Assembly (NCBI GenBank): GCA_902533625.1
Contig: CACAMI010000008.1
Coordinates: 1 to 64,000, forward strand
DNA from: an uncultured Alphaproteobacteria bacterium
GTDB lineage: Bacteria; Pseudomonadota; Alphaproteobacteria; Rhodobacterales; Rhodobacteraceae
Direction of reading: 5' to 3'
Length of the DNA: 64,000 nt
The notes beneath the pieces are model-generated. The model had not been told where the DNA came from and did no database searches. It worked only from the letters and a program-made list of their open reading frames with translations. Positions 6,405 to 40,075 of this stretch are shown here, piece after piece. Position 1 is the stretch's first letter. Each line of letters starts with the position of its first letter. A program made the position numbers and the translations under genes.

Positions 6405-6695
6405 CTAAGAGGAATGTATAACTTTTGTCTCGTACGCGATTTCCTTAGGAGCCAAAGAATTGGGCAAGCGTGATTGTGCCGAAAGAAATTTTCGAACCTC
6501 ATTCATATGGTCTTTATCCTTATATTCCCAAACTGAAACCACCTGATTTGGCTGTGAAATGCTTTGAGATATGGTAAACTTTGCATCAAGACTAGCTTTG
6601 TTTAAACCATCCTTGGTGTTTGCCCCTATAGAAAGAAATAATTCTGCATGCTCTAAATTTTGAAAAGTTCGTACCGTAACTCTTATAATTGCCAT
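6405..6695 (-). CDS. small ABM-like (ferredoxin-fold) protein, subfamily C
   Basis: A 96-residue protein of the dimeric alpha/beta-barrel type. The hallmark is a central strand with an aromatic/charged turn (VVSVWEYKDKDHM) in the middle of the chain, as in antibiotic-biosynthesis-monooxygenase-like and NIPSNAP-like proteins. The start has a good ribosome site (GAGGT, 6 nt spacing). The C-terminal half resembles the protein at 27028-27372: both have PNxxxxxWxxKxKxH followed by LAPK, so they are probably paralogs. It follows two other small genes on the same strand. No function can be assigned. Confidence 0.65.
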   Translation of the reverse strand: MAIIRVTVRTFQNLEHAELFLSIGANTKDGLNKASLDAKFTISQSISQPNQVVSVWEYKDKDHMNEVRKFLSAQSRLPNSLAPKEIAYETKVIHSS

Positions 6696-6735
6696 TAGTA
6701 TACCTCAAAAAAAATATAGTTTAATATTAAACTAA

Positions 6736-6993
6736 CTATTCTCCACTCTCACCTTCAATAATGGCAACTTTAGCCATAGCTTGCTCTTTTAACCCCTGCA
6801 TAGCTTTTAAAACCTCAATTTTTTGGCCAGCTTCTTCTTTGTTAGGAAAAGTTTCTAATATAAATCCACTATTATCAGTAGACTTAAAAAGACGTCGTGT
6901 GTTTTGACCTTCTTCGTAAGATTTTGCCACAGCTTCAACCACTGACCACAAGGAAGGCGCCAAGAGAGTAAAGGTGATTAGCCTCCCATACAT
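6736..6993 (-). CDS. small ABM-like protein, subfamily B
   Basis: An 85-residue protein of unknown function. Its middle and end (LFKSTDNSGFILETF, then KEEAGQKIEVL and VAIIEGE) align without gaps to the protein at 19547-19837 (IFKMSSNSGFVVSRF, KIEADKIMSIM, IKLIEGP), so the two are paralogs. Predicted strands and helices alternate as in a single ferredoxin-like domain. The ATG overlaps the stop of the upstream GYD-like gene by 1 nt (TAATG), so the two are translationally coupled. Confidence 0.65.
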   Translation of the reverse strand: MYGRLITFTLLAPSLWSVVEAVAKSYEEGQNTRRLFKSTDNSGFILETFPNKEEAGQKIEVLKAMQGLKEQAMAKVAIIEGESGE

Positions 6994-7343
6994 TAACCGT
7001 CCCCCGCAAGCTGCATAGACGTAACATATGAATTAACACCATCATGTGCTTTTTCATAAATTTTCTTATATTCATGTGACTCATATGCTCTAGACCAATG
7101 CATACTATCCCAAGTACCTGAAGAAAATACTACAGCCGAAAGTGCTTCAACATCAGAATCATTTTCAGCCTCTACTATGCTAAAAAAATTGAAACTCTCA
7201 CTACTTGTAAATAAAAACTCCCTAATCTTTATATTAAACTGATCAAGCATAGGCTTTACAACATCTATTCTATTTTGAGGTTTACTAACCATGCCGGACG
7301 CATATTCTGAATTACTTCGTCCGTATACAATATAAGTTTTCAT
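6993..7343 (-). CDS. GYD domain-like protein
   Basis: A 116-residue protein resembling GYD-domain proteins, small soluble proteins with a ferredoxin-like fold and no firmly known reaction. It begins with a strand (MKTYIVYGRSN), has an NRIDVVKPMLDQFN helix, and then a FNFFSIVEAENDSDVEALSAVVFSSGTW-type pattern, where the family usually has a tyrosine-aspartate turn and a residue pair after the second strand. The ribosome site is GGAG, 8 nt before ATG. It heads a three-gene minus-strand group of small ferredoxin-like proteins ending at 6405. Confidence 0.6.
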   Translation of the reverse strand: MKTYIVYGRSNSEYASGMVSKPQNRIDVVKPMLDQFNIKIREFLFTSSESFNFFSIVEAENDSDVEALSAVVFSSGTWDSMHWSRAYESHEYKKIYEKAHDGVNSYVTSMQLAGDG

Positions 7344-7575
7344 TTAAAATACTCCATCCAAAAATTTGCTATTTAAAATTAGTTCAATTTTAATATCTAA
7401 AACTTTTTTATATACTTAAAAAGGTTTAAATTAAGATTAACCAATTTCCTTAACCATTTAGACATCAATACTAATAACTATGCAAATAAAGATTCCAATT
7501 AAAAATAGTTGCTTTATGGATTAGAAGCATCAATTTACCACAGTTGAAACATAAACTTTAATAAAGGAATTAAGC

Positions 7576-8757
7576 ATCACTCAAAACACTAAAATATCCA
7601 AGCAGGTCTTGATAATTATTTTCGCTCAATTGCTTGGAACATCACTATGGTTTAGCCCTAATAGCGTTATGCCCCAGGTAACAGAAGTCTGGGGTTTGGC
7701 CACTCATGATGTAGGCCTCCTGACAAACTCTGTTCAATTTGGCTTTATTTTAGGAACCTTAAGCTTTGTTTTGCTGGGTTTTTCTGATAAATACGACCCT
7801 AGTAAAATAATCTTTGCTTGCTGCCTAATTGGCGCCTTTACAAATTTATTAATAATACTAGAGCCGAAGAACTTTCAGATCATTTTATTTACCAGAATTG
7901 TCGTAGGCTTTTCCTTGGCAGGCATTTACCCAATAGGGATGAAGCTTATTATTACCTGGTCAAAAACTTCGACCTCCACAAATTTAGGCTTGCTCGTTGG
8001 AATGCTAACTCTGGGCACTGCTCTCCCACATTTAATAAGGATGCTAGGAGTTAGCTTTGATTGGAAAGCCACTATATTAGTTACCTCTATTCTTTCTAGC
8101 GCAGGAGGCATACTAATTCTAATGTTGGGCTCAGGTCCATATCTAAGAACCTCAGTATATAAAAATTTACCCCTACTAAAAAATTTGAGGCAATTAATCT
8201 ATAAAAAAGATTATATTTCGTCAGCCTTGGGGTATTTTGGACATATGTGGGAACTCTATGCCTTTTGGGCTTGTGTGCCATTTTTCTTATTAAGCATTCT
8301 ACGGAACCCTTCTATGGAGCAGATTGCCGGTTTTTCATTCTTGATTATTGGCATTGGATGCATAGGGTGCTTTCTTTCTGGAATGATGTCACAAAAATAT
8401 GGCAGTCCAATTATTGCCGCATTGAGCTTGCTCATCTCTGGTTTGATATGTTTATTATATCCCATTCTACCTCCCAACCTAATTTCATTAAAACTTACTT
8501 TTCTCATTTTGTGGGGCTTTTTTGTTATTTCAGATTCACCACTTTATTCGTCCATTTCGGCCCAAGCTGCACCAAAAGATCTAGTTGGGACAGCCTTGGT
8601 AACTCAAAATTGTATAGGGTTTTCCATCAGCATTATCTCTATTTTCATTTCAACATATCTATTCCCACTTATCGGAGAAAGGATTGCTTGGATTCTTTTG
8701 CCGGGACCTTTAATAGGATTAATTTACTTTTATAGATTAATAGGAAAGAAGTACTAA
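7576..8757 (+). CDS. MFS transporter (probable AUC start)
   Basis: Major facilitator superfamily inner-membrane transporter, substrate unknown. It has about twelve hydrophobic segments; the first carries GTSLWFSPNSVMPQ, and a later GIYPIGMKL segment is typical of a drug/metabolite-like MFS group. The usual start codons give only a TTG at 7609, which cuts directly into membrane segment 1 and has no ribosome site. An in-frame ATC at 7576 lies 7 nt after AAGGA (7564-7568) and adds an 11-residue polar leader before the first membrane segment. I therefore favour ATC (393 aa). About 36 nt separate it from the thioesterase gene, suggesting cotranscription. Confidence 0.82.
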   Translation: MTQNTKISKQVLIIIFAQLLGTSLWFSPNSVMPQVTEVWGLATHDVGLLTNSVQFGFILGTLSFVLLGFSDKYDPSKIIFACCLIGAFTNLLIILEPKNFQIILFTRIVVGFSLAGIYPIGMKLIITWSKTSTSTNLGLLVGMLTLGTALPHLIRMLGVSFDWKATILVTSILSSAGGILILMLGSGPYLRTSVYKNLPLLKNLRQLIYKKDYISSALGYFGHMWELYAFWACVPFFLLSILRNPSMEQIAGFSFLIIGIGCIGCFLSGMMSQKYGSPIIAALSLLISGLICLLYPILPPNLISLKLTFLILWGFFVISDSPLYSSISAQAAPKDLVGTALVTQNCIGFSISIISIFISTYLFPLIGERIAWILLPGPLIGLIYFYRLIGKKY

Positions 8758-8793
8758 ATTGATTAGACTAATATTGTAGAGTTAGAAAGAAGA

Positions 8794-9237
8794 TTGCAAA
8801 TGAAAAGAAAAACTGCAGAAGACATTATTAATTCCTTCAATAATCAAAAATTCATGAAATTCTTGAATGCCGAGGTTTCTATTAAAGAGCCAGGCAAGTG
8901 CCAAATATCTATTCAGCAGGGAGAAAATCTAACACAGCAGCATGGACTGTTTCATGGAGGTGTTATCTCTACTTTAGCCGACAACTCAGCAGCTTTTGCT
9001 GCCACCTCTCTAATGGAAAAAAATAGGGAACCTCTAACAATAGAATGCAAAGTAAATTTTATTGATATAGCAGATGGAGAAACACTATGGGCTGAGGGAG
9101 AGGTTTTATCCGCCGGCAAAAGGATTTTTCACGCCGAATCAAAAGTTTACACAAGTGTAGCAGGTGCGGTTAAATTATGTGCTGTTGCATTAGTAACCAT
9201 TAAATCAACGTTAAGAGTGGAAGAAATATCGCCTTAA
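8794..9237 (+). CDS. PaaI family hotdog-fold thioesterase
   Basis: Cytoplasmic acyl-CoA thioesterase of the PaaI/hotdog type. The family signature HGGVISTLADNSAAFAA is present at about residues 53-69, within a 147-residue chain of normal size. The conserved HGG-loop and acidic residue on the long helix supply the catalytic site in relatives. The TTG at 8794 or the ATG at 8800 could be the start; the ATG sits after an AGAAGA sequence. It follows the MFS gene and probably shares its transcript. The substrate is not predictable. Confidence 0.9.
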   Translation: MQMKRKTAEDIINSFNNQKFMKFLNAEVSIKEPGKCQISIQQGENLTQQHGLFHGGVISTLADNSAAFAATSLMEKNREPLTIECKVNFIDIADGETLWAEGEVLSAGKRIFHAESKVYTSVAGAVKLCAVALVTIKSTLRVEEISP

Positions 9238-9240
9238 TAA

Positions 9241-9369
9241 TTATTTGATATCGTTTTTTTGTTTGTCAATTTTGTTTCTTTTAATCGGCAATCTGGAAAG
9301 AAAAAAAAATACCAGCACACCAATTAAAATTAATGCTCCCTCTAAAAGAACTAGAAATTCACCGCCCAA
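9241..9369 (-). CDS. small single-pass membrane protein (42 aa)
   Basis: A short gene with strong signals. A perfect AGGAGG lies 6 nt upstream of a TTG start at 9369, and the product is 42 aa. It has one hydrophobic segment (FLVLLEGALILIGVLVFFFL) followed by a basic, polar tail (SRLPIKRNKIDKQKND). The stop is immediately next to the end of the convergent thioesterase gene. The shape (short acidic N-terminus, one membrane span, Arg/Lys-rich tail) recalls small uncharacterised membrane proteins common in Rhodobacterales. Function unknown. Confidence 0.6.
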   Translation of the reverse strand: MGGEFLVLLEGALILIGVLVFFFLSRLPIKRNKIDKQKNDIK

Positions 9370-9532: not shown

Positions 9533-10528
9533 ATGAATGAATCCCGCTATGGAAATCGTGATGAGCGTAATCACTACCGACCTTTTAAGCGCGTAGATTA
9601 CCCACCTCTATTCGTCTGGCCTCTTCAACCTATAAAAGGACTTCGATGGATTTTTTCTATACCCGGATACTTTTTTCCATGGAATATGATCTACGTACTT
9701 ACAGGGATCAGTGCTTGGTACTTATTATCCCCACCTTTAGAAAACTTCTCCAAAATTACCTTAGAAAATATAAGCCTTTTATTCATGAGGAATTCTAGCT
9801 TTGTAGCTATCTATTTTGGCGCATTCCATGTCCGGTTATATATTCAAAAGAAACAAGGAACAGCATTCAAATTTAATCCTAATTGGCCAAATATAAAAAG
9901 TAAAAAGTTTATGCTTGGAAATCAAAACTTAGACAATATTATTTGGACATTCGGAAGCGGAGTTGTAATTTGGACTTTACTAGAAGTTGGCATTCTGTGG
10001 CTCGCGGCAAACAATATACTAAATGTAATTTCTCCAACCGATAGACCATATTACTTTATTTTTATGATCCTAACTGTTCATTTGTGGCGCGATATTCATT
10101 TTTACCTCATTCATCGATTCATTCACTGCGGACCCTTATACCGACATGCCCACTATATTCATCATAAGAATAATAACCCTGGTCCTTGGTCAGGGCTTGC
10201 AATGCACCCAACAGAGCATATTTTTTATTTTTCGTGTGTATTCTTTTACCTAATTTTTCCTTTCCATCCAGCATTTGCAGTTGTAACCCTTGTGCATGCT
10301 GGTCTAAGCCCAGCACCGGGTCACGCAGGCTTTGAGCGCATGATTTTAAAAAATGCTGACTTTGATATTGATGCACATGCCCATTACCTCCATCACAAGC
10401 ACTTTGAGTGTAACTACGCCGATGGAATTCTTCCTTTGGACAGATGGTTTGGCACCTTTCACGATGGAAGTCTGGAAGCACAGGAAAAAATGAAAAAACG
10501 CCTAAAGGAACAGGCAGTGAGAAAATAG
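9533..10528 (+). CDS. sterol desaturase / fatty acid hydroxylase family protein
   Basis: Integral membrane di-iron oxygenase of the fatty-acid-hydroxylase superfamily, which hydroxylates or desaturates lipids or carotenoids. The histidine clusters that bind the two irons are intact: HFYLIHRFIH near residues 189-198, HAHYIHHK near residue 204, HPTEH near residue 225 and HAHYLHHKHFE near residue 283. Several membrane segments precede and separate them. The length of 331 aa is normal. It stands alone, with a 295-nt gap upstream holding the small minus-strand gene. The lipid substrate is not predictable. Confidence 0.92.
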   Translation: MNESRYGNRDERNHYRPFKRVDYPPLFVWPLQPIKGLRWIFSIPGYFFPWNMIYVLTGISAWYLLSPPLENFSKITLENISLLFMRNSSFVAIYFGAFHVRLYIQKKQGTAFKFNPNWPNIKSKKFMLGNQNLDNIIWTFGSGVVIWTLLEVGILWLAANNILNVISPTDRPYYFIFMILTVHLWRDIHFYLIHRFIHCGPLYRHAHYIHHKNNNPGPWSGLAMHPTEHIFYFSCVFFYLIFPFHPAFAVVTLVHAGLSPAPGHAGFERMILKNADFDIDAHAHYLHHKHFECNYADGILPLDRWFGTFHDGSLEAQEKMKKRLKEQAVRK

Positions 10529-15070: not shown

Positions 15071-15427
15071 TCAATTCAAATTTAATTCATCAGAATCAAG
15101 CAAAGTAATTGCTCGACTGGTAGTTAGAATAACGTTTATTTTGCTAAAGAATTTTCTATGCTCTTCTTTTTCAAAATGTTTATCCATAAGCGCCTGACAC
15201 TCTTTAAATGCCTCAGTATCTCTGTACTCATAAATCTGAGACAAAGTGAATTTACCTTCTTTATTCCATATTCTATTCAAGCGCCAACGAATTAAACCTT
15301 TAGTCTTTAAAAGGGACACATATTCCGAAGCATATTTTTCCCAGTAACTTATAAAAAACTCAAGCTCTGCCTCAGTGGAAAGGTCCATTACAGTATAACT
15401 AACCAATTTCGCATTACTGCTATCCAT
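15071..15427 (-). CDS. small ABM/NIPSNAP-like protein, subfamily A
   Basis: A 118-residue protein with a ferredoxin-like pattern: an opening strand LVSYTVMDLS, a helix, then GLIRWRLNRIWNKEGKFTLS, IYEYRDTEAFKECQ and a final strand. The blocks RIWNKEG and EYRDxxAFKECQ recur in the proteins at 37172 and 39752, which are clear paralogs. The fold is shared by small oxygenases and by NIPSNAP-type proteins, but no catalytic residue is established, so I assign no reaction. AAGGAG lies 5 nt before the ATG. It precedes the MazG-like gene in a two-gene unit. Confidence 0.7.
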   Translation of the reverse strand: MDSSNAKLVSYTVMDLSTEAELEFFISYWEKYASEYVSLLKTKGLIRWRLNRIWNKEGKFTLSQIYEYRDTEAFKECQALMDKHFEKEEHRKFFSKINVILTTSRAITLLDSDELNLN

Positions 15428-27027: not shown

Positions 27028-27372
27028 ATGCTTAAAACAACAATAATCAATACTTTTGCTTCAGAAGATGATTGTGACATGTTTATAATGGTGCTTAAAC
27101 AACAATGGCCGAACTATATTGAAAAACTTCCAGAAAGCACTTTAGAAATTGTTAAAGATACTGAAACTCCAAACAGAATGTTGGCACTTTGGACATTTAA
27201 AGAGAAATCACATCAAAAGATTATACAAGACCTTGGGGAGAAAATAATAATCCCATACAGAGACAGACTAGCTCCTAAAACAGTTACCAATAATTGGGAG
27301 GTTGAGCATACATTAGCAATTGGAAAAAAAAATAGATCTCTAGAGACCCAAAATAAGAATCATAGGGGTTAA
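27028..27372 (+). CDS. small ABM-like protein, subfamily C
   Basis: A 114-residue protein. It has the ferredoxin-like pattern with a helix after the first strand (SEDDCDMFIMVLKQQW), a central strand RMLALWTFKEKSHQK, and the motif RLAPKTVTNNWEVEH. PNxxxxxWxxKxKxH and LAPK match the protein at 6405-6695, so these two form a subfamily. The tail (GKKNRSLETQNKNHRG) is polar and probably disordered. It is a singleton that converges on the asparaginase gene. No function assigned. Confidence 0.62.
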   Translation: MLKTTIINTFASEDDCDMFIMVLKQQWPNYIEKLPESTLEIVKDTETPNRMLALWTFKEKSHQKIIQDLGEKIIIPYRDRLAPKTVTNNWEVEHTLAIGKKNRSLETQNKNHRG

Positions 27373-30054: not shown

Positions 30055-30137
30055 AGGAGTTCTTCTCTCTAATCAATAGATAAGGTTGCTCACAATGATG
30101 AAATGGTAAAACGAAATCATTTGTTAGACAAGGATTA

Positions 30138-30250
30138 GAAAATGTACCTGTTGACACAGCGCCTAGATCACATAAAGTGCTTATATTGCTGACTTTTATT
30201 TGATATGTGGTGTATGTGTGAAGCACTGAACTGCCTCTTGACCGCACCAT
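30138..30250 (-). repeat. repeat R1 copy a (begins with a tRNA-Leu 3'-end-like segment)
   Basis: Read on the minus strand from 30250, this stretch starts ATGGTGCGG, matching the plus-strand sequence at the 3' end of the tRNA-Leu gene near 40.24 kb. It continues for about 110 bp and matches 36304-36417 (plus strand) with about 16 differences and no gaps (about 86% identity by eye). Most codon changes between the copies would alter the amino acid, so it is not a conserved gene. It abuts repeat F copy b. Confidence 0.8.
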
Positions 30251-30320
30251 GATTTCGCATAACAAATTGAAATGTAAATATAAATTTTAAAACAGACGAT
30301 TGGTGTGAAAGAAATGAGCG
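30243..30320 (-). repeat. repeat F copy b (tRNA-Leu downstream flank)
   Basis: On the minus strand this matches the flank downstream of the tRNA-Leu gene (40166-40245 plus strand) nearly base for base over about 75 bp, including TTTCTTTCACACCAATCGTC, ACATTTCAATT and TTATGCGAAAT. Its complement supplies the upstream region and the first codons of the ABM-like gene that begins at 30305. Direction relative to the tRNA copy is inverted. Confidence 0.8.
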
Positions 30321-30643
30321 AAAACCAGTCTAAAAACTTTGTAACTGTGGGCTTAATAAGTTTTCCGTCTAGAGTGCAATACGATTTGTGGTATGAGAAA
30401 TATATCACGTTTTATTCTCCTAAAGCAGTTGAGTTTTTAAAAGAAAATGGACAATTAAGCCAGTCAGCGAACTTAATTGACGAAGACAACGACTTAATGC
30501 GAGTTGCTATTATTTGGACTTATAGAGATAAAAGTGCCTATGAAGCATGTCAAAAGTTTCACAGTCAGTGGGCAAAAATTGGAGGTGACTTTATTGGGAA
30601 AGCATCTTTTTATCGCGGTGAACAAATATGGGGATTTTGTTAG
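30305..30643 (+). CDS. small ABM-like protein (related to subfamily A)
   Basis: A 112-residue protein of ferredoxin-like pattern. The late block AIIWTYRDKSAYEACQKFHSQW matches the EYRDxxAFKECQ block of the proteins at 15071 and 37172, while the RIWNK motif is replaced by NLIDEDNDLMRV. Two starts are possible: GTG 30305 (MKEMSENQSK) or ATG 30314. The GTG is favoured by the repeat comparison, because two other copies of the upstream repeat begin with the same GTG-(A/G)AA-GAA codons. Function unknown. It is convergent with the DUF924 gene. Confidence 0.6.
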   Translation: MKEMSENQSKNFVTVGLISFPSRVQYDLWYEKYITFYSPKAVEFLKENGQLSQSANLIDEDNDLMRVAIIWTYRDKSAYEACQKFHSQWAKIGGDFIGKASFYRGEQIWGFC

Positions 30644-31590: not shown

Positions 31591-31605
31591 TTTTTATTAA
31601 CACTT

Positions 31606-31908: not shown

Positions 31909-31943
31909 ATAAAATTCCTAGGACTTACCTATTGATAAATAAA

Positions 31944-32015
31944 ATTATTTCTTTTTCATTTTCTTCCACGCCAATCCCTCGCTATAAAATTTATAATTAC
32001 ATTTTAATTGATGTT
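31944..32015 (+). repeat. repeat F copy c (degenerate)
   Basis: This plus-strand stretch (TTTCTTTTTCATTTTCTTCC, then CGCCAATC, AAATTTATAATTACATTTTAATTG) aligns to the tRNA-Leu flank copy at 40166-40245 with scattered differences. On the complement it carries a 14-codon frame starting GTG at 31969, parallel to the codons that start the ABM-like gene at 30305. It lies just upstream of the NTF2-like gene at 31908. Confidence 0.6.
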
Positions 32016-32025
32016 GGTAAATTAA

Positions 32026-33354
32026 CTAAATGGAAACCTTAAAAAGAGTCCAATTACCTGGGATCCCCTTTAGTTCATGTTGGCCAAACTTTTTTAATTT
32101 TAATTCGGATCCAGAAATAAGATCTGCTAAACTTTTCGTAATAACGATATTGTTACCTTTATCAATGTCCATTACTCTGGACGCTATATTAACGGCCATG
32201 CCAGAAATATCTTCTCCCCTCCACTGAATATTTCCTAAGTGCAGACCACACCTAGACTCTATTCCCAAGAATTTAATAGCCCTTTTTACTTCAACTGCAC
32301 AAGTAATTCCTCTTACCGGCCCATCAAAAACTAGTAAAGCTCCATCACCAGTACTCTTAATATAGTTCCCAGAAAATTTTTCAGCCATTTCTTTAATAAT
32401 TACATCATGTTCATCAAGTATTTCACTCCATTTTTTGTCTCCAAATTCTGAGAGCTTAGACGTTGATTCAACAATATCTGTAAACAATATTGTAGCCAAT
32501 CTATCATTCTCTGTAGTTTGCAGTTGGTTTCTTAAGGATGATTTTTTAAAGAAAAAATCTAAATCATCAGCTAGTTGGTCTTCTAAGCCAAAGTAAGGTA
32601 AGTGCCCACCGGAAGAATATTCAATATATTTTGCATCAGGAATATGTTCTGCAATGTAACGGCCATTCTCCTTTGGCACTCGCTTATCATCTCTACTGTG
32701 GCAAACTAATGTTGGAGTTTTAATTTCTGGCAAAATTGCTCGGATATCTATTTTCATATTTGTCTCAATCATATTGGCTAAAGTTTTAGGGTTACAAGTC
32801 ATTCTTTCAAATTTACCCATAGCTTCCTTCATTTGAGGCATGACATGAGGGCACAATGAATAGCCAGATAGACCCTCACCCCAACTATCAATCCAATTAA
32901 ACTTTTCCTGTTCTTCGTTTTGAAACAAATAGTCTTTAGAATTTGTTACCCTTGGGAACCCTCCTAGGATCGCTACAGACTTTACATTTTCGGGATGACT
33001 GGCTGCATAAAAAAGCGCTATAGCAGCACCCTCAGATAGACCAAATAATGAAAAATTTTCAATACCTTCAGCGGTAATAACTGCTGTTATATCATCGGCT
33101 CTTGCTTCAATACCAGGCATTGAAGCATCTCTATCCGACATTCCTTGCCCTCGCTTATCAAAAATAATAACTTTAAAATTTTTACTTAAGTTTTCAAGCC
33201 ATTTTACATAACCCTTGATTTCTAAGGTTACTTCCAAATGGGATACAATTCCAGGCACATAAACCAAAACATTATCTGCCTCACCCCAAACTTGATAAGC
33301 GATACTTAGCTCTCCAATACTGGCGTATCTAATTTTTGGAAATACTTTTCTCAT
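32026..33354 (-). CDS. alpha/beta hydrolase fused to a class III adenylate cyclase
   Basis: A two-domain soluble protein of 442 aa. Residues about 1-270 are an alpha/beta hydrolase: VYVPGIVSHLE (oxyanion loop), the nucleophile elbow FGLSEGAAIA (Ser in GLSEG), HSRDDKRVP (Asp) and a GGHLPYFG histidine. Residues about 285-442 are a class III cyclase: ILFTDIVESTSK and KSTGDGALLVFDG (metal aspartates), and MAVNIASRVM (transition-state Asn and Arg), so both halves appear active. Hydrolase-cyclase fusions occur in some actinobacteria and proteobacteria and are thought to tie cyclic AMP to ligand hydrolysis or sensing. The ligand is unknown. Confidence 0.9.
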   Translation of the reverse strand: MRKVFPKIRYASIGELSIAYQVWGEADNVLVYVPGIVSHLEVTLEIKGYVKWLENLSKNFKVIIFDKRGQGMSDRDASMPGIEARADDITAVITAEGIENFSLFGLSEGAAIALFYAASHPENVKSVAILGGFPRVTNSKDYLFQNEEQEKFNWIDSWGEGLSGYSLCPHVMPQMKEAMGKFERMTCNPKTLANMIETNMKIDIRAILPEIKTPTLVCHSRDDKRVPKENGRYIAEHIPDAKYIEYSSGGHLPYFGLEDQLADDLDFFFKKSSLRNQLQTTENDRLATILFTDIVESTSKLSEFGDKKWSEILDEHDVIIKEMAEKFSGNYIKSTGDGALLVFDGPVRGITCAVEVKRAIKFLGIESRCGLHLGNIQWRGEDISGMAVNIASRVMDIDKGNNIVITKSLADLISGSELKLKKFGQHELKGIPGNWTLFKVSI

Positions 33355-33372
33355 TTAATTAACCAAACATTT

Positions 33373-33786
33373 TCACACATTAATTTTCATACACTGGAAT
33401 GCATTGACTATGGTGCGCTTACTATTATTTAGTGGATCTTTATCAGTGACGATTCCAAAAGTTTTGGAGTGAAAGCTATTGACCACAAGAAATTCATTAT
33501 TCCCCTTATTATCCTTCAAATCCTTTTCACATGAAATCTGATCATTATACCTCTTAAGGGGTGGATCATTCATATCATTGTTCACCATCTTATACGCCAT
33601 CTCAACCCCTGAAAATTCTATACTCCCTTCAGGCTGAGCAACAGCAATCTGATAAAATACTATTATCCAGTATGAGGCCTCGGTCTCTGAAATATTTAGC
33701 AACATTCGTGTTGACGGCTTTTCAGCAAATGCCGAACCAGAAAAAAGGTTAAAACAAATAATTAATGTAGATATCATACGCATCAT
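33373..33786 (-). CDS. secreted protein with KPSTRMLL motif
   Basis: A 137-residue exported protein. It begins with a signal peptide (MRMISTLIICFNLFSGSAFA, cleaved before EKPST). The mature N-terminus, EKPSTRMLLNISETEA, has an eight-residue identity to the linker of the nuclease-like fusion at 28864-30054 (KKPSTRMLLAVSDEKP). The rest is beta-rich with two cysteines (ISCEKD and FQCMK). No family is recognised. It ends 18 nt before the start of the hydrolase-cyclase gene and is probably cotranscribed with it. Confidence 0.65.
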   Translation of the reverse strand: MMRMISTLIICFNLFSGSAFAEKPSTRMLLNISETEASYWIIVFYQIAVAQPEGSIEFSGVEMAYKMVNNDMNDPPLKRYNDQISCEKDLKDNKGNNEFLVVNSFHSKTFGIVTDKDPLNNSKRTIVNAFQCMKINV

Positions 33787-33794
33787 TGTATTTT

Positions 33795-34046
33795 CTATAC
33801 TAAGCCTATTAATTTCATAGCATCATATTTTTCTCTTAGAGTTTCCTCAAAAACTTCTTCAAACTCATTAGACTCCTTTAATTCCTGCTCAAAACACCAC
33901 AGACACAAAGTTACAGTTATATTCCTACTTATTTCTATAAACTTTACTGGAATAGGTTCAGAATATTCAGGGTGCGGATTTAATGATCTTTTGCACCAGC
34001 TGCATTTAGCCGTTTCTAATCCATAAATAGTTCTATAATTTTTCAT
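33795..34046 (-). CDS. small protein with two CxxC pairs
   Basis: An 83-residue soluble protein of unknown function. CSWC (residues 15-18) and CLWC (about residues 48-51) form two CxxC pairs separated by about 30 residues, as in a zinc ribbon, with a helical acidic C-terminus (ELKESNEFEEVFEETLREKY). Zinc binding is inferred. It lies 8 nt upstream of the secreted-protein gene on the same strand. Confidence 0.55.
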   Translation of the reverse strand: MKNYRTIYGLETAKCSWCKRSLNPHPEYSEPIPVKFIEISRNITVTLCLWCFEQELKESNEFEEVFEETLREKYDAMKLIGLV

Positions 34047-34075
34047 CTATGACACTAGTAAACTGGTGATCTGGA

Positions 34076-34285
34076 TCATACTATTGGAATAATACTTTCA
34101 AAAAATATCTTAAATGAAAAAATGCTAACCAATAACACAATAGATATTACCAGCCCATATAGATAAATTTTCTTCGTCAAATCTTTTGAGCGTTCTTTAA
34201 TCGAAACATCACTTTTCCCAAAAACATTTTCAAAGGAATTTTGTAACTCTGCTTTATCATCCCTATTCATACGACTAAATGACAT
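34076..34285 (-). CDS. small membrane protein (69 aa)
   Basis: A 69-residue protein with a charged, helical N-terminal half (NRDDKAELQNSFENVFGKSD) and one C-terminal membrane span (LYGLVISIVLLVSIFSFKIFF). No family is recognised. It heads a string of small minus-strand genes running down to the hydrolase-cyclase fusion, with about 30 nt to the CxxC gene. It may be a tail-anchored protein; function unknown. Confidence 0.5.
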   Translation of the reverse strand: MSFSRMNRDDKAELQNSFENVFGKSDVSIKERSKDLTKKIYLYGLVISIVLLVSIFSFKIFFESIIPIV

Positions 34286-34432
34286 TTAATTTTTTCCTGA
34301 GTTAAATATTTCGTAATTAAACTACTTTTTAAAGATCATACAATGTTCGTCAAGCTTTTGTCTGACTGACTTCGCATCGGAAAGAACGGTAGAAAGCGAT
34401 TTGGTCTTTAAACTAAAGCTAATCCTAGAGGC

Positions 34433-34492
34433 TGAGTAAAATTGTCTCAAGTCAGCAGGAATAGGTCTGCCAAAGTAGCAAATCCCACCCCC
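34433..34492 (+). repeat. repeat R2 copy a
   Basis: About 60 bp beginning TGAGTAAAATTGTCTCAAGT and ending AAATCCCACCCC, repeated at 36146-36205 in the same direction. The first 31 bases are identical and the rest similar. It lies in the 357-nt gap at 34286-34642, which has no gene. Confidence 0.75.
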
Positions 34493-34497
34493 AATAC

Positions 34498-34529
34498 AGT
34501 TTAAATGATTCAGCCAGAGTGATGCAGTT
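34498..34529 (+). repeat. repeat R3 copy a
   Basis: A 32-bp sequence beginning AGTTTAAATGATTCAGCCAG and ending GTGATGCAGTT, identical at 37019-37050 in the same direction. It directly follows repeat R2 copy a, whereas copy b stands about 800 bp away from R2 copy b. Confidence 0.75.
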
Positions 34530-34642
34530 TGGCTATAACTAATCTCATCATCGCCTTCTAGTCAAAGCTACAACCTATTGAAATTAATAACTAGCTACAT
34601 ACATAGAGATCTACCAAAACTAGAAGCAGTAGGGAAAACATT

Positions 34643-35026
34643 ATGAGCATGGAATTATACTATCTCGTCCTTTTCGCGTTACTTATAGTAGCGACTATTT
34701 TAATCCAACAGTTAGCAAGCGTTTTTAGTGAGGGGTTACTACCACTTTTTGGTTCCCGGGAAGATATAAAATTCACGGGTCTAACAGGTAGACTTGAGAG
34801 GGCCATTATTAACTCCGTGATTGCTATGTCAGTAATGGCTCCAACGGTTTTAGCCTTGCACTTAACGAATGCAAGCACCGGTGGCACAGTACTGGCAATG
34901 CAAATTTTTTTAATATCTCGGCTACTATATATATTTTCGTACGCCTTTAGCATCTTTGGATTGCGCTCGGGAGCCTGGGTATCAGGGCTCCTTTGCAACC
35001 TATGGTTATTCTTTGCGCTGATATGA
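34643..35026 (+). CDS. MAPEG family membrane protein
   Basis: A 127-residue inner-membrane protein of the MAPEG superfamily (membrane-associated proteins in eicosanoid and glutathione metabolism). Four predicted spans, GLTGRLERAIINSVIAM for the family arginine/asparagine block, and ISRLLYIFSYAFSIFGLRSGAW near the end fit the family. Bacterial members are often glutathione-linked or of unknown role. It is separated by 123 nt from the deacetylase-like gene that follows. Confidence 0.8.
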   Translation: MSMELYYLVLFALLIVATILIQQLASVFSEGLLPLFGSREDIKFTGLTGRLERAIINSVIAMSVMAPTVLALHLTNASTGGTVLAMQIFLISRLLYIFSYAFSIFGLRSGAWVSGLLCNLWLFFALI

Positions 35027-35149
35027 GCACTATAGATTTAATTGGGAGTGGTGGAAGCTTAGCTGTAAATGATTAAATTAATGCTCTTAATGGCGAGCGG
35101 CCCATCATCTGTTCTAGAGAGACATAAATCCTAAAAAAAAGGGGATCTA

Positions 35150-36070
35150 ATGGGCAGTAAGATCAGCTTCATTTATCATCCTAAGTATGACATACCGTTA
35201 CCCGTACCTCATCGTTTCACATCTTCAAAGTTTTCCGATCTTTTTCAAGAGCTGAAAATAACGGGTTTAATAGGAAATTCTGTCGTACTGACGCCCACTT
35301 TTGCTACAGTAGCGGATCTGTCGATAATACATAATCCAGATTATATTGCTAAATTTGAGTCAGGTAATTTATCTTCCGATGAATTAAGAAGGCTGGGGCT
35401 GCCATGGACCAAGGAATTAGTTGAGAGATCATTTCTAGCAGTCAACGGCACATACTTAACAGCCATTGAGGCGCTGAGAAATGGAGTCGCTTGTCACCTG
35501 GCTGGTGGCACCCATCACTCGCATTATGATTTTGGATCTGGCTTTTGCGTGTTCAATGACATGGCTTTCGCCGCAGTCCAGCTTTTAAATCAAAGGAGAA
35601 TCAAAAGAATACTTATCTTTGACTGTGATGTACATCAAGGGGATGGAACAGCAGCGATCTTGGAAAATAACTCTAATGTGTTCACTTGCTCTATCCATTG
35701 CAGGAAAAACTTTCCCGCCAGAAAAATGAAAAGCGATTTAGATATTGAACTTGATGACAATCTTGGAAATAAAGATTACTTGCGAATTCTTCGCAATACT
35801 CTGAAAAATTGCACAAGTAGGTTTTTTCCAGACCTAGTAATATACGATGCAGGGGTTGATGTCTCCCAGACCGATAAGCTTGGACGATTAAAACTAGATA
35901 TTGATGGCATTTATGAACGCGACTTCTGTGTTCTTGAATATTTTAAAAACCTGTCCATCCCTGTTGCTACTGTGATTGGAGGAGGATATTCTGGTGACCC
36001 TAAAGAACTAGCAAGGCGGCACTCTCAGGTGTTTCACGCAGCCCAAAACCTACATGGTTTTACTAAATAA
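35150..36070 (+). CDS. histone deacetylase-like amidohydrolase
   Basis: Zinc-dependent amidohydrolase of the histone-deacetylase superfamily, whose bacterial members act on acetyl-polyamines or acetylated proteins. Motifs seen: HPKYDIPLP at the start, LAGGTHHSHYDFGSGFCVFND (catalytic His pair), FDCDVHQGDGT (zinc Asp and His), IYDAGVDVSQTDKLGRL (zinc Asp) and GGGYS (the family's transition-state glycine/tyrosine loop). At 306 aa it is a normal length. GGGGATCT precedes the ATG. It is the last gene before a 1.1 kb non-coding stretch. Confidence 0.88.
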   Translation: MGSKISFIYHPKYDIPLPVPHRFTSSKFSDLFQELKITGLIGNSVVLTPTFATVADLSIIHNPDYIAKFESGNLSSDELRRLGLPWTKELVERSFLAVNGTYLTAIEALRNGVACHLAGGTHHSHYDFGSGFCVFNDMAFAAVQLLNQRRIKRILIFDCDVHQGDGTAAILENNSNVFTCSIHCRKNFPARKMKSDLDIELDDNLGNKDYLRILRNTLKNCTSRFFPDLVIYDAGVDVSQTDKLGRLKLDIDGIYERDFCVLEYFKNLSIPVATVIGGGYSGDPKELARRHSQVFHAAQNLHGFTK

Positions 36071-36145
36071 TTTAGGATCTCTCAAGAGGCACGGTTTTTG
36101 GTAGTTGAAGGTTGTTTTTTGGATCGTTATCAATTTATTTTAAGT

Positions 36146-36205
36146 TGAGTAAAATTGTCTCAAGTCAGCAGGAATACATCTTATAAAGTAATAAATCCCA
36201 CCCCT
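36146..36205 (+). repeat. repeat R2 copy b
   Basis: Second copy of the sequence beginning TGAGTAAAATTGTCTCAAGT found at 34433-34492; the opening 31 bases are identical and the CCCACCCC end is retained. Confidence 0.75.
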
Positions 36206-36303
36206 GTTATAAACATGCAACTCATCAGAACTGTTCATCACTTTGTACATCACCTGTGCTGTTTCACCAAATAGTGCATACAAATCAATGTGTTAGATTG
36301 TGT

Positions 36304-36417
36304 GATGGTGAGGCTGAGAAGTAGTTCAGTGCTTCACACATGCACCACACACCAAATGAAAGTCAGCAATATAAACACTTTATGTGATCCAGACTATGTG
36401 TCAACAGGCACATTTTC
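36304..36417 (+). repeat. repeat R1 copy b (begins with a tRNA-Leu 3'-end-like segment)
   Basis: Starts GATGGTGAGGCTGAGAAG, which differs by one base from the plus-strand sequence across the 3' end of the tRNA-Leu gene (40241-40258). It then continues into the 95-bp unit shared with 30138-30250, in the opposite direction. The tRNA gene itself does not contain the 95-bp part. Confidence 0.8.
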
Positions 36418-36621
36418 TTTCACACTTTCTTTCACAGTTAGAATGAACACCCCCATGCGAGGGCCACTGGGTATGCCTACGTAGTATATACATCTGATGC
36501 GCAACAGATCAGTGTGCAGGCATGTTAACCAGTGGCAGTTAAGGTGGTGTCACTTAGCCTGGTACAGTTATGATGTCATAACACCTAGGGTGTGCCTCTA
36601 AATGACTCTGAGAGACTCAAA

Positions 36622-36687
36622 ATGGGGTGCTAGAGACTCAATAGATGTGTGTCATAGTGTTAAAGGAGTCAGTTCAAGTGTTTGAGT
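36622..36687 (+). repeat. repeat R4 copy a
   Basis: About 66 bp starting ATGGGGTGCTAGAGACTCAA and ending near GGAGTCAGTTCAAGTG, repeated at 39623-39687 in the same direction with few changes. It contains GACTC and GAGTC pentamers in inverted arrangement. Confidence 0.75.
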
Positions 36688-37018
36688 CTGTGTGAGCTGT
36701 TTTTAGGGGGGTGAAAAAGTTTTATCCAGTTCTATTGAATATGAAGCATAAACACTTACATGATATAACATGAAAAATATAGTATATATAATAATAGAAG
36801 TACTAGAATATTACACTACTCCCATTATACGGACTTTCATGCAAGATGAACCTAAAAGAGTGCCTATAAAAGTGGTTCACGAGAATGATAGAAGGAAAGC
36901 TCCCTACCCACCTACTCGTCTGTAAGATCTAGAGTTTTTAAAAAGTAGTTATCCGGCTCAAGTTTTGAACAAGGTTTAGCTTTCTATAAATCATAGGTTA
37001 ACAACGCTACCCCAGTAG

Positions 37019-37050
37019 AGTTTAAATGATTCAGCCAGAGTGATGCAGTT
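37019..37050 (+). repeat. repeat R3 copy b
   Basis: Identical copy of the 32-bp sequence at 34498-34529 (AGTTTAAATGATTCAGCCAG and so on), same direction. Confidence 0.75.
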
Positions 37051-37171
37051 AGTTGGTTAGTTGCAATAAATGCTATTACGATGTATTGGCTCAGTCGCCC
37101 CTAAGGAAGTTTTTAGACTATCATTGTATGGAATTTTTAAAATTTTTATATCTAAAAGCCCAAATTAGTCG

Positions 37172-37498
37172 CTAGTCGGAAAGAACATTATTATCTAACA
37201 CAATACCACGGTTAGCAAATATTTTTGCAGGCGTTTCTGGGTTTAATCTCTCTATTTCTTGCCATATCGGCTGACATTCTTTGTAAGCTTTTTCATCACG
37301 ATATTCAAAAATAAACCCCAACCTATAAACGCCCTCTTTATTCCATATGCGAAGCATTGCATGCCGTATCATACCCTTCTTTTTTAACTCTGGAAGATAT
37401 TTGGACTTTTGCTCATTATTCCAACGCATAATAGTTATCTCCATATCATTCTTGGAACTAAAATCTACTGTGGAGTAATTTACAATTGTTGCTGGCGT
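37172..37498 (-). CDS. small ABM/NIPSNAP-like protein, subfamily A
   Basis: A 108-residue protein, one of three close paralogs. Blocks: IVNYSTVDFSSKNDMEI, KKKGMIRHAMLRIWNKEGVY, LGFIFEYRDEKAYKECQ, and a final strand NRGIVLDNN. These match the proteins at 15071 (RIWNKEG, EYRDTEAFKECQ) and 39752 (RIWNKGD, LGILFEY). The frame extends to a GTG at 37528, but the paralogs begin a few residues before the first strand, so I prefer ATG 37498, with AGGAG about 13 nt upstream. No catalytic residue is recognised. Confidence 0.7.
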   Translation of the reverse strand, partial: TPATIVNYSTVDFSSKNDMEITIMRWNNEQKSKYLPELKKKGMIRHAMLRIWNKEGVYRLGFIFEYRDEKAYKECQPIWQEIERLNPETPAKIFANRGIVLDNNVLSD

Positions 37499-37725
37499 CA
37501 TCTTTACTACTAAACTCCTAAAACTCACTAAATAGCTTAACCGAACTAATTTTAATTGGAAACTAGATAAATGGGATCAATTGACTAAACTGTAACCCAA
37601 AAGTTTACCTATCCACCATCACTTACCATGTACTAGTAACCGATATTTTTACTATGAAAAATATCAAAAATATTTTACAAGAATTATAGTTTATAATTTG
37701 AACTTATGATAAAGAGGAAAACTTG

Positions 37726-38016
37726 ATGAAATATATCGTTAATACTGTTTGGAAACACGACAACACCATAAAGTGGGAAAAAATGCAGGAAGCAATGGAT
37801 CAATTAAATAAACAAGGATCTCCTGCTGAGGAAGTATTTTGGTTTGCAATTGATGAAAATGCTCACGGAGCAGTAAGTGTTTTTCCTTCTGAAGAAAGTT
37901 ATAGAGAATATAAGGAAAAATTAAATGAAATGAGAAAAGATTCATCATCAGAGATGAATATTTCCATGACATTTGAAGCACGTGGATTGGTTCGTGTTAC
38001 CAAGACTGGAGCTTAA
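37726..38016 (+). CDS. small ABM-like protein
   Basis: A 96-residue protein, probably one ferredoxin-like domain. It opens with MKYIVNTVWKHDNTIKWEKM, has a middle strand AHGAVSVFPSEESYREYKEKL and a final strand ISMTFEARGLVRVTK. AGGA lies 7 nt before the ATG at 37726; the codon before it (TTG 37723) is an alternative. It resembles subfamily B only loosely. Single-gene unit in the accessory region; function unknown. Confidence 0.58.
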   Translation: MKYIVNTVWKHDNTIKWEKMQEAMDQLNKQGSPAEEVFWFAIDENAHGAVSVFPSEESYREYKEKLNEMRKDSSSEMNISMTFEARGLVRVTKTGA

Positions 38017-38233
38017 ACCTTTGACCTCTTAATGCGATATAAAAAAAAATTTTTTCTATAAGTTAAGGCTCAATGAAAATGTAACAGAGTAGTCGTATGA
38101 AGAAAGACAACAAATGCACAGGTTACCAGTGAAGACCAGAATACTTTTGAACATCCCTTAAGTTTTATAATCGTAGCTTTGAATATAGAGATTGGGGCCA
38201 GCCACTAAAAGTTTAGTGCTGACCCTTTAAAAA

Positions 38234-38854
38234 TTAATACCAACCGACTATCCAAGCACTCTCTAAATGACCTAAATCAGCTGCCTTACTAACAATTTTC
38301 TGAAATTCGTCTGACATTCCTATGCTATCAAAAGATTGACCTACTTCCTTAAAAGTCTTAGATCCATAACCAACCATTACCCTGCTCATATTTTCTCCAG
38401 TGACTGGTACCCATGCTGTGACATTAACATTCATCTTTTCTCCCATCTTCGCCACCTGAGGGATCATTTCTAAGGCTTCTGATAATTTATTTCGCTTCAT
38501 ATTGTAAAGCCGGAAAAGCGTAAATTTATAAGAGTCATCTAGCTCACCGTAAACTTTTCTCAACATGTTCATGGGAAGAATTATGTCAGATGCTGGATTC
38601 GTTTGAATTCGCCTTATTATTTTTTTAAACCCTGGGTCTTCCCAACCACTTTCAATTTTAGCGGTGGCATCAGAAAAATTCTCATACATTGAAACCCAAG
38701 ATAGTGAACCCGCAGTCGCTCCAAAAAGCTCCTTATTTACAGAGCAATCATTCCCAAGAGACTTCCAATATTCACTGTTTTCAAGCATATTTTGTAAGCA
38801 TAATGAGTACTTTCCTTGATGAGGCATTACTGTTGTAACGGTACAAATTGTCAT
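38234..38854 (-). CDS. protein with two tandem ABM/NIPSNAP-like domains
   Basis: A 206-residue protein in which two halves look alike. Each begins with a strand and a long helix (HQGKYSLCLQNMLENSEYW and RNKLSEALEMIPQVAKMGEKM), has a central strand (SLSWVSMYENFSD and SRVMVGYGSKTFKEVGQ) and ends with a helix (DPGFKKIIRRIQ and DEFQKIVSKAADLG). This is the arrangement of double NIPSNAP-type proteins. It is a two-domain relative of the single-domain genes in this window. Function unknown; single-gene unit. Confidence 0.6.
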   Translation of the reverse strand: MTICTVTTVMPHQGKYSLCLQNMLENSEYWKSLGNDCSVNKELFGATAGSLSWVSMYENFSDATAKIESGWEDPGFKKIIRRIQTNPASDIILPMNMLRKVYGELDDSYKFTLFRLYNMKRNKLSEALEMIPQVAKMGEKMNVNVTAWVPVTGENMSRVMVGYGSKTFKEVGQSFDSIGMSDEFQKIVSKAADLGHLESAWIVGWY

Positions 38855-38950
38855 ATCATTTCCTTTCCTAGATTAATTGGCAATTGGACACTTTTGACAT
38901 TATTCTTTACATTGTAAATGCAAAGTTCTTTTTCTGAACGTTACATGAAT

Positions 38951-38979
38951 TTAAATGAGGAGTTCCTTCATGGTATAAT
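38951..38979 (+). promoter_or_regulatory. extended -10 promoter upstream of the 39054 gene
   Basis: TATAAT at 38974-38979 is preceded by TGG, giving an extended -10 element, with a weak -35 (TTAAAT, 38951-38956) at 17-bp spacing. It lies 75 nt upstream of the ATG at 39054, whose ribosome site is AAAGGAAAG. It is the clearest sigma70-type promoter I see in the accessory region. Confidence 0.5.
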
Positions 38980-39053
38980 ACCATCTTCTAAATTCCCATT
39001 CTCAACTAACTGATTTTTATATTTAAAATCTTCTATACAAAAAGGAAAGTTTA

Positions 39054-39551
39054 ATGGACGGAAATATTCCTCTTTTTAATAATGAATTCATTATTGCTAC
39101 TTTGAACCTAGAACAAAGAATACTCAATTTTAAAAACCTCAAGCATGAGTCTAAAAACACCATAGGAGTCTGTCAGCGCTATTTTCGTTCTAGTTTGACT
39201 AGAAGGCTAATCGGGAATGAAATTTTAGCCAATACAATTGAAGGAAAATGGTCAACGCAAGCTAGGATTAGAAAGAATTTTGGACTAAGCAAAGGCCAAG
39301 TATCTTCCATCTTTAATGATTGTGTTCAAGCAGAGTGGTTTGTCGTACAAGATAAAATGAAAAGAAAATCTAAGCAACCTCACTATCAGGCAGCGAAGAT
39401 ACTGATTAAGTCTGTTGAAATCTATCAGAGGTACATTTGGCAGGATTTTGAAACAGAAACGCTAAAAACTTTCTTAGAACATTTTGTTTCAAATAGTAAA
39501 CTTGCAACATCAGTTGTTCATAAAGAAATTTTCACACCTACAAAACTTTAG
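39054..39551 (+). CDS. putative winged-helix DNA-binding protein
   Basis: A 165-residue protein with no recognised family by eye. The centre suggests a helix-turn-helix: STQARIRKNFGLSKGQVSSIFNDCVQAEWF, where GLSKGQVSSIF fits a turn and recognition helix, followed by a basic wing (DKMKRKSKQPHYQ). The N-terminal part is helical and has a single cysteine. A MarR-like or mobile-element-type regulator is possible. It has its own extended -10 promoter, and repeat R4b follows 71 nt after its stop. Confidence 0.5.
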   Translation: MDGNIPLFNNEFIIATLNLEQRILNFKNLKHESKNTIGVCQRYFRSSLTRRLIGNEILANTIEGKWSTQARIRKNFGLSKGQVSSIFNDCVQAEWFVVQDKMKRKSKQPHYQAAKILIKSVEIYQRYIWQDFETETLKTFLEHFVSNSKLATSVVHKEIFTPTKL

Positions 39552-39622
39552 AAGGACTTTCATGTAAGAAGATCTAACCAGAAAAAGGCATTAAACTGGA
39601 TTGGGATCAGCGAAGTCTGTAG

Positions 39623-39687
39623 ATGGGGTGCTAGAGACTCAATAGATGTGTGTCATAGGGTTAAGGAGTCAGTTTAGGTGGATGAGT
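39623..39687 (+). repeat. repeat R4 copy b
   Basis: Second copy of the sequence starting ATGGGGTGCTAGAGACTCAA at 36622-36687, same direction, between the putative DNA-binding gene and the ABM-like gene at 39752. Confidence 0.75.
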
Positions 39688-39751
39688 AAGATTTGACTAA
39701 TTAAATATTAAATTATATTAAATTTACGATTATAAAATATGGAAGATTACT

Positions 39752-40075
39752 ATGTCTGCACTTATCAATTATACTACTATTGCCTTTACAACAGAATTTG
39801 AAATGAAGGAGATGATAAAGCATCTTGATGCTACTAGTAAAGTATGGGCACCTGAAATGAAAAAACGTGGTTTAAAACGTTTTGTTTGTACTCGCATTTG
39901 GAACAAAGGTGATACATTTAAATTGGGGATTTTATTTGAATACGATACAAAAGAAGCATTTCAAAATACCATTGAGTATTTAGATGAACATTTTAATAAA
40001 CTTCCTAAAACAAAAGAATTGATGACTATGGCAAAAATGGAAGGAAGCCGAGGCATTGCAGTTTTTGAAGTATAA
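39752..40075 (+). CDS. small ABM/NIPSNAP-like protein, subfamily A
   Basis: A 107-residue protein, third member of subfamily A. Blocks: LINYTTIAFTTEFEM, KKRGLKRFVCTRIWNKGDTF, LGILFEYDTKEAFQNT, with the closing strand GSRGIAVFEV. RIWNK and FEY are shared with 15071 and 37172, but the CQ pair after the helix is lost. GGAAG lies upstream of the ATG. It is the last gene before the tRNA-Leu. Function unknown. Confidence 0.7.
   Translation: MSALINYTTIAFTTEFEMKEMIKHLDATSKVWAPEMKKRGLKRFVCTRIWNKGDTFKLGILFEYDTKEAFQNTIEYLDEHFNKLPKTKELMTMAKMEGSRGIAVFEV

Follow-up and report, generated by a model that had tools for sequence, protein, structure and literature searches.

The window analysed here is the first 64 kb of contig C8 in the genome of a probably planktonic, Rhodobacterales-like alphaproteobacterium (G000; 1.85 Mb, 72 contigs, 74.65% complete), and it carries eleven small genes, named below by the coordinate at which they begin. 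By sequence comparison, four of them are members of the family DUF6974, two belong to the family of the solved structure 2OD4, two are DUF6974-related and one is GYD-like. We refer to 15071, 30305, 37172 and 39752 as subfamily A, to 6736 and 19547 as B, to 6405 and 27028 as C, to 37726 as D and to 38234 as T, whereas E is a further family defined in this analysis, with members outside the window. The comparison genomes were those of a congener (G033), of a family-mate (G090, a metagenome-assembled genome titled Paracoccaceae) and of the SAR116 family (including G548, G578 and G574), which was defined via G536, a genome titled SAR116, and holds 61 genomes.

6405..6695, minus strand: subfamily C protein, last gene of the GYD-B-C run; C profile against DUF6974 profile 95%; G033 orthologue 64% identical
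6736..6993, minus strand: subfamily B protein (2OD4 family); orthologues in G033 (79%), G090 (52%) and SAR116-family G548 (57%)
6993..7343, minus strand: GYD-like protein, first gene of the run; 26.4 bits to PF08734, under the cut-off
15071..15427, minus strand: DUF6974 protein; 51.6 bits to PF22388
19547..19837, minus strand: subfamily B protein (2OD4 family); no match on G033:C4; 64% to a SAR116 gene
27028..27372, plus strand: subfamily C protein; 28-31% to SAR116-family relatives
30305..30643, plus strand: divergent DUF6974 gene, directly behind a leader copy; 31.1 bits to PF22388; ATG at 30314
37172..37528, minus strand: canonical DUF6974 gene; 75.0 bits to PF22388; modelled from the ATG at 37501
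37726..38016, plus strand: small gene D; G033 orthologue 57%; no significant Pfam or PDB match
38234..38854, minus strand: possible two-domain protein T of 206 amino acids; 2PGC as top profile match (E 1.1); paralogue on G000:C3
39752..40075, plus strand: DUF6974 gene of the 2OD6 group, recently transferred; 47.1 bits to PF22388

All eleven open reading frames (ORFs) named in a preliminary description of this DNA are present, 37726 lying inside an ORF at 37723-38016, and the three paralogous subfamilies proposed there were recovered by phmmer within the set. The A members match one another at E 5e-22 to 2e-5, except for the 30305-39752 pair (0.15-0.25, not significant), the B pair matches at about 2e-7 and the C pair at about 2e-6. 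The motifs ascribed to B and C hold, and those of A are shared as described with two exceptions: RIWNK is missing from 30305, and the second motif is not present in 39752, which reads EYDTKEAFQNT there. The best match across subfamilies, between C gene 6405 and A gene 30305 (E about 1e-3), is marginal, because an unrelated small ORF at 33795 reaches 0.006 with 27028.

The Pfam gathering scores are 26 bits for DUF6974 (PF22388), 31.4 for GYD (PF08734) and 22.3 for NIPSNAP (PF07978). The four A genes passed the first with the scores listed; 6993 stayed below the second, and its G090 orthologue (L094:1755-2108), at 31.9 bits, exceeded it. No Pfam family was reached above its cut-off by B, C, 37726 or 38234, NIPSNAP included (6405 12.8 bits, 38234 14.6, the paralogue of 38234 19.5), none of the eleven proteins matched Pfam ABM (PF03992) at E 1, and an NCBIfam scan of ten of them (all but 37726) gave nothing useful. 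When members from other genomes were added, profile-profile comparison gave probabilities of 95% for A-C, 69% for C-E, 56% for B-E and 48% for A-E, the direct A-B link reached only 2.8%, GYD matched the C-terminal half of 38234 at 26%, and 37726 showed no link to any family (best 3.5%). The highest of 378 true control comparisons was 2.4%; these are 396 comparisons less 18 in which members of B or C stood as "controls", and many of them are two-sequence profiles, some from antisense ORFs. By profile, C is homologous to DUF6974.

An AlphaFold2 model of 37172, built as a monomer with 13 relatives, had a predicted local distance difference test score (pLDDT) of 88.1, a predicted template modelling score of 0.78 and the order E-H-E-E-H-E of strands and helices. 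The best solved structures found with this model by Foldseek were 2OP5 (E 4e-11) and 2OD6 (E 2e-9), both from uncultured marine organisms. Among its VIA neighbours, 2OD6 had a Z score of 15.9 with a root-mean-square deviation of 1.2 A over 102 residues, and ABM/IsdG types and 2OD4 followed these two structures, with Z from 11.5 down to 9.4 among the matches listed. In searches of PDB sequences, the A profile matched 2OD6 (1.1e-23) and 2OP5 (1.1e-22), and the B profile, made from six sequences, matched 2OD4 at E 7.8e-11 over 88 of its 92 positions. No significant match came out of the PDB searches with C, with E or with 37726, nor out of those with 38234 alone, 6993 or 39054. The top PDB match of the 38234 profile was 2PGC, collinear over about 148 residues, with an E of only 1.1 that was tied with an unrelated chain, and a single-sequence AlphaFold model of 38234 had a pLDDT of 36.3. 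A is assigned a ferredoxin-like fold from the 37172 model and the homology to 2OD6 and 2OP5, B is assigned it by homology to 2OD4, the same fold is supported for C by its homology to A, and 38234 is possibly a two-domain, 2PGC-like protein. The common fold first proposed for the whole set therefore holds for A, B and, via homology, C, and is unproven for 37726 and 38234. We take the window proteins to be of the dimeric alpha+beta barrel (DABB) kind.

A genome-wide search found five DUF6974 copies in G000, four of them in the window, together with two B and two C genes, all in the window, three E genes, none in the window, and two genes of the 38234 type, one in the window. The last type was found in no other genome among ten searched, and the single Pfam ABM gene of G000 lies outside the window at a contig end. 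Beside the 38234 paralogue on G000:C3, L044 (98-445 and 1299-1919) holds a possible extra barrel-type ORF with a weak E-profile match (0.016). A DUF6974 match occurred in 4 of 149 genomes of the source family (E 0.01; three above the cut-off), in 2 of 385 genomes of the class Alphaproteobacteria (E 0.001), G000 being counted in both, and in none of 14 control genomes. In the SAR116 family, 33 of 61 genomes had a match (E 0.001) and 24 had at least two; the 106 matches in all, a few of which are pieces of one broken gene, reach a maximum of 12 in G548. A DUF6974 gene on G090:C9 (L013/L014) is broken by frame changes. The copy number of DUF6974 in G000 is far above that of nearly all other sampled Alphaproteobacteria; it is highest in the SAR116 family, and the dozens of copies that an expansion had been expected to leave are not there.

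The gene 39752 shares 88.8% of its protein and 88.5% of its DNA (over 381 bp) with a gene of SAR116-family G548. The DNA match spans 39702-40080, beginning about 50 nt ahead of the gene and ending 5 nt beyond its stop. The lipB genes beside the same tRNA are 45.9% identical between the window and G548, and because 39752 stands at 88.8% against this value at the same tRNA-Leu(GAG)-lipB site, the sequences show that it was recently transferred. For 30305 the identity to genes from G578 and G574 is 75-78%, and the DNA match begins near the start codon and ends close to the stop. When 270 G000 ORFs were compared with 519 kb of SAR116 DNA, 50 matched (median 32%), and the top three were window family genes (39752 at 88.8%, 30305 at 74.8% and 19547 at 63.7%; next 56%).

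A maximum-likelihood tree was built from 32 proteins, and 12 of its 29 inner branches have the stated support, with 12 open. In it, 39752 groups with 2OD6 (95/88) and a G033 copy with 2OP5 (97/80). In the same tree, 15071 joins a G033 copy and two SAR116 copies (93/86), and one Paracoccaceae copy pairs with one SAR116 copy (100/100). 37172 and its G033 orthologue (99/99) fall within a six-row clade (93/93) that also holds the G000 C4 copy and G033, Paracoccaceae and AG-453-K15 copies, while 30305 sits unplaced on a very long branch. The window is syntenic, in inverted order, with most of a 60-kb stretch of G033:C4. At E 1e-4, that stretch offers no match for 19547, 27028, 30305 or 38234, and the sole counterpart of 15071, 37172 and 39752 on it is a distant paralogue (28-32%). 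At the 15071 site, the G033 orthologues of both neighbours are adjacent with no such ORF between them, and 37172 has an 87% orthologue on a different G033 contig. The window copies have neighbours with no relation to one another, as first described, and are in general singletons, with the exception of 6405-6736-6993, a three-gene GYD-B-C run conserved in G033. This run adjoins a predicted S-adenosylmethionine-dependent carboxyl methyltransferase gene (4794-5996, minus strand; PF03492, 117 bits), of a family best known from plants. A second run conserved in both congeners (L037:7866-10249, L032:7991-9758) consists of a family E gene, nucleosidase-like and VOC-like genes (both labels by eye) and a DUF6974 gene.

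Five of the eleven genes lie within a 10-kb island that ends at tRNA-Leu(GAG), and its features are as follows.

30137..30250, no strand: outer-arm repeat; inverted copy at 36305-36418, 114 nt, 86%
30239..30314, plus strand: attachment/leader copy, tRNA-Leu 3'-end-like CCGCACCA plus about 60 nt; 73 nt at 90%; inverted relative to the copy at the tRNA; runs into the start of 30305
31947..32022, minus strand: degenerate leader copy upstream of 31606-31908; 75% over 76 nt to 40165-40240
34337..34529, minus strand: DUF6538 tyrosine-recombinase remnant; tblastn protein match at 34337-34495
36303..36436, minus strand: tRNA-Leu 3'-end copy with leader-like flank; 15/16 nt at 36306-36321
40130..40177, minus strand: start of a recombinase gene remnant (MRKKFN..., stop after 15 codons), by eye against the G548 start MRKKY
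40178..40258, minus strand: attachment/leader at the tRNA (tRNA 3' end plus leader), from repeat comparison
40243..40329, minus strand: tRNA-Leu(GAG), island boundary next to lipB; same tRNA-lipB neighbourhood in G548

A tRNA at the border is thus accompanied by repeated tRNA 3' ends, at 30239 (degenerate) and 36306 (15/16 nt), and judged by its sequence the island is of the general tRNA-bordered flexible-island kind. DNA repeats of the 34337 remnant occur at 36146-36204 and 37010-37050; the recombinases of the window are remnants only, and no intact one was found. lipB lies at 40436, beyond the tRNA, and 39752 lies on the tRNA's other side. The arrangement in G548 is similar: lipB is found about 1 kb beyond tRNA-Leu(GAG), across the tRNA from lipB, at 3-4 kb, lie the relative of 39752 and a DUF6538-type recombinase, and that side also carries a further DUF6974 gene and a GYD-B pair, the latter at a distance of 13 kb. 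In G033 a recombinase broken into two ORFs comes after the same tRNA-Leu(GAG), and a perfect 95-bp inverted repeat of tRNA-Leu end and leader (L029:752-846 and 1997-2091) encloses only the DUF6538 recombinase region.

Several other features were noted in the island. A histone-deacetylase-domain gene (35150-36070, plus strand; 186 bits) is 50% identical to a SAR116-family gene, and 32026-33354 (minus strand) encodes an alpha/beta hydrolase fused to an adenylate/guanylate cyclase domain. The small gene behind the degenerate leader copy (31606-31908, minus strand) is SnoaL/NTF2-like by eye, with no Pfam match; G033 has an orthologue of it, and in SAR116 locus L057 a distant relative adjoins DUF6974. 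A dispersed repeat of about 65 bp, resembling a miniature inverted-repeat transposable element, is present at 36622-36687 and 39623-39687 (91% between the window copies) and in G033 at L029:2376-2437, 6287-6337, 9200-9266 and 10313-10367, with inverted GAGTCTGTATGGGCTGTT-like ends.

Beyond the island, ten DUF6538-type recombinase segments were found in 7 of 24 DUF6974-bearing SAR116 stretches (244 kb) and none in 17 control SAR116 stretches (204 kb), an association with p 0.03 in a Fisher test (7/24 against 0/17 stretches); there is one in the window and one in the 60 kb of G033:C4. Within 427 kb of G548, segments lie on C2 (one, beside DUF6974), on C20 (four, with four DUF6974 genes) and on C6 (one, 12 kb from a DUF6974 gene), and the sampled parts of C1, C3, C4, C5, C7 and C8 hold none. 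The leader motif GATTGGTRTGNAANAAA, which was derived from the island copies and is not matched by G033's own leader, occurs three times in the window, always in the island, and seven times in 4 of the 24 DUF6974-bearing SAR116 stretches; it is missing from 207 kb of G000, 204 kb of SAR116 control, 111 kb of G033 and 66 kb of G090 DNA.

Considering all the above results, we think it probable that the window holds accessory genes for small ferredoxin-like proteins of the dimeric alpha+beta-barrel type, from a pool common to planktonic Alphaproteobacteria and lodged in part at a tRNA island. Diverged paralogous families would be shared by SAR116 and the source Rhodobacterales-like lineage and would be gained and lost mainly as single genes, and DUF6538 tyrosine recombinases, when intact, would have delivered genes by recombination at the tRNA end. 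A weaker part of the proposal is that the proteins form dimers and take up hydrophobic acids, for instance oxo-fatty acids, in the barrel, where these may be oxidised or isomerised. The closest solved relative of 39752 is 2OD6, for which 10-oxohexadecanoic acid is listed among ligands unique to structural-genomics entries (PMC2954221, Table 2); the practice stated by the Joint Center for Structural Genomics (JCSG) is to label unidentified density as unknown ligand. Because of this ligand listing and the fold, hydrophobic-acid binding is the best-supported guess, and cofactor-free oxidation is possible.

A number of observations weigh against this reading. The island does not include six of the eleven genes (6405-27028), which also have no leader-motif match, and the GYD-B-C run looks stably inherited. 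The sequences of 37172 and the G000 C4 copy may reflect a duplication within the lineage. The SAR116 DNA with which the 270 G000 ORFs were compared is enriched for DUF6974 neighbourhoods, and other transferred genes are therefore under-sampled in the ranking. No phage or plasmid carrier was found: searches of phages and plasmids gave no DUF6974 gene like 37172, and of 48 pattern matches in IMG/VR none was confirmed. The Fisher test of the association with recombinases overstates independence because the DUF6974 stretches were hand-picked and several come from one genome. The remaining 17 of 24 DUF6974-bearing SAR116 stretches have no such recombinase, and none was found in 207 kb of other G000 DNA, which includes the C4 stretch with DUF6974, in other G033 stretches (27 kb with DUF6974, in two stretches, and 24 kb of control), in G090 (54 kb with DUF6974, in three stretches, and 12 kb of control) or, near the DUF6974 pair of G548:C8, in 72 sampled kb of that contig. 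Six of six recombinase regions of G033 and SAR116 inspected frame by frame (L029, L054, L116, L118, L122 and L135) are split, truncated or interrupted, and any present-day activity is therefore conjectural. As for function, the 2OD6 ligand may be an expression-host artefact, and catalysis by the barrel proteins is no more than possible. Finally, the genomes compared are incomplete.

The preliminary description had favoured a lineage-specific expansion, which proved only half right. In its local form, tandem duplication within the lineage followed by drift apart within the region, it could draw on the crowding of four of the five G000 DUF6974 genes, two B and two C genes within 34 kb, on the clade that unites 37172 with the G000 C4 copy, and on the tandem DUF6974 genes of SAR116-family G548:C20. 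However, the tree assigns 15071, 37172 and 39752 to separate groups that include copies from other genomes, 39752 and 30305 resemble SAR116-family genes more closely than they do any other gene of the window, in the one congener studied the syntenic sites lack several of the copies, and the G033 copies are spread over three contigs (C1, C4 and C45), so that we regard local expansion as very unlikely. The tree groups and the nearest relatives in other genomes also led us to reject recent tandem duplication as the main account. Somewhat less doubtful, and still unlikely, are ABM-like cofactor-free monooxygenases of one pathway, kept by selection in a metabolic region where the tRNA island is incidental. 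The structural neighbours ranked after 2OD6 and 2OP5 do include IsdG/IsdI, SnoaB, ActVA-Orf6 and LsrG, and some relatives adjoin Rieske- or VOC-like genes (labels by eye), but the absence of any Pfam ABM match, window neighbours that are mutually unrelated and several copies missing from the congener's syntenic site speak against it, and a common fold shows no function. A single operon or pathway was rejected on the unrelated neighbours and on presence and absence between congeners.

Two further accounts concern the leader copies. Four loci with a leader pair were compared (window 30239/40258, G033:C4, G548:C2 and G548:C20), in which the two copies face each other. All four have a DUF6538 recombinase gene or remnant behind one copy, and three have DUF6974 behind the other, directly in the window and G548:C20 and about 70 nt behind a truncated leader in G548:C2. 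The tRNA 3' end with its 60-80-nt leader ending at a start codon might accordingly form a recombinase-driven mobile expression slot, with DUF6974 as part of the element's equipment, which we consider unlikely. Recombination between the facing leader copies would invert the segment and swap the ORF behind the tRNA, and the recombinase would work in an integron-like way, capturing or inverting DNA so as to bring single small genes, in many cases DUF6974, under tRNA read-through transcription. A leader-like sequence (at least 45 nt, to one of four queries) precedes 5 of 73 distinct DUF6974 proteins, namely 30305, the two relatives of it in the SAR116 family, one protein on G548:C20 and one on G548:C2, and among 434 ORFs with 150 codons or more, of which three are the recombinases, two others follow such a sequence, one of them acetyltransferase-like by eye; the four queries come from loci in the tested set, and the test is therefore partly circular. 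It is highly improbable that the leader copies represent degenerate attC sites of an integron, with the DUF6974 genes as ordinary cassettes: single-ORF units do adjoin repeated sites and tyrosine recombinases, but the repeat is a tRNA-Leu 3' end plus a leader abutting start codons, the recombinases are DUF6538-type, and the copies occur in both orientations.

The probable reading as a shared accessory pool can be set beside several known systems. The entries 2OD5, 2OD4, 2OD6, 2OP5 and 2PGC are described as crystal structures from novel metagenomic families of the Global Ocean Sampling (PMC2557142), and three of these five have sequence relatives in the window, which therefore offers a genomic home for them: patchy accessory genes of planktonic Alphaproteobacteria that appear to have moved between families, partly at a tRNA-Leu(GAG) hot spot. 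The purpose of these orphan marine proteins thereby becomes a set of testable questions, concerning the ligand (an oxo-fatty acid?) and the carrier (a DUF6538 recombinase). In the literature searched we found no mention of DUF6974 or DUF6538, nothing on a marine expansion of dimeric alpha+beta barrel or ferredoxin-like paralogs, and nothing on SAR116 genomic islands with a tyrosine recombinase and a tRNA. DUF6974 shares sequence family, fold and length with 2OD6 and 2OP5, JCSG structures from uncultured marine organisms, and nothing differs in kind; subfamily B matches 2OD4, of the same origin, by profile. The ABM/IsdG monooxygenases, NIPSNAP, GYD and Dabb have the same fold, and 6993 is near GYD, whereas sequence membership above a cut-off was reached only by its G090 orthologue. 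Islands bordered by a tRNA are known as tycheposons and as additive flexible genomic islands with recurring tRNA 3'-end repeats in Methylophilaceae (PMC10872708). The window has in common with these islands a border tRNA, a tyrosine recombinase (here as remnants), recurring tRNA-end repeats and variable cargo, the likeness to tycheposons resting on the tRNA and the recombinase. It differs from them in its tRNA-Leu(GAG), in the DUF6538 type of its recombinase, in having leader copies that face each other and run up to start codons, and in the recurrent DUF6974 cargo.

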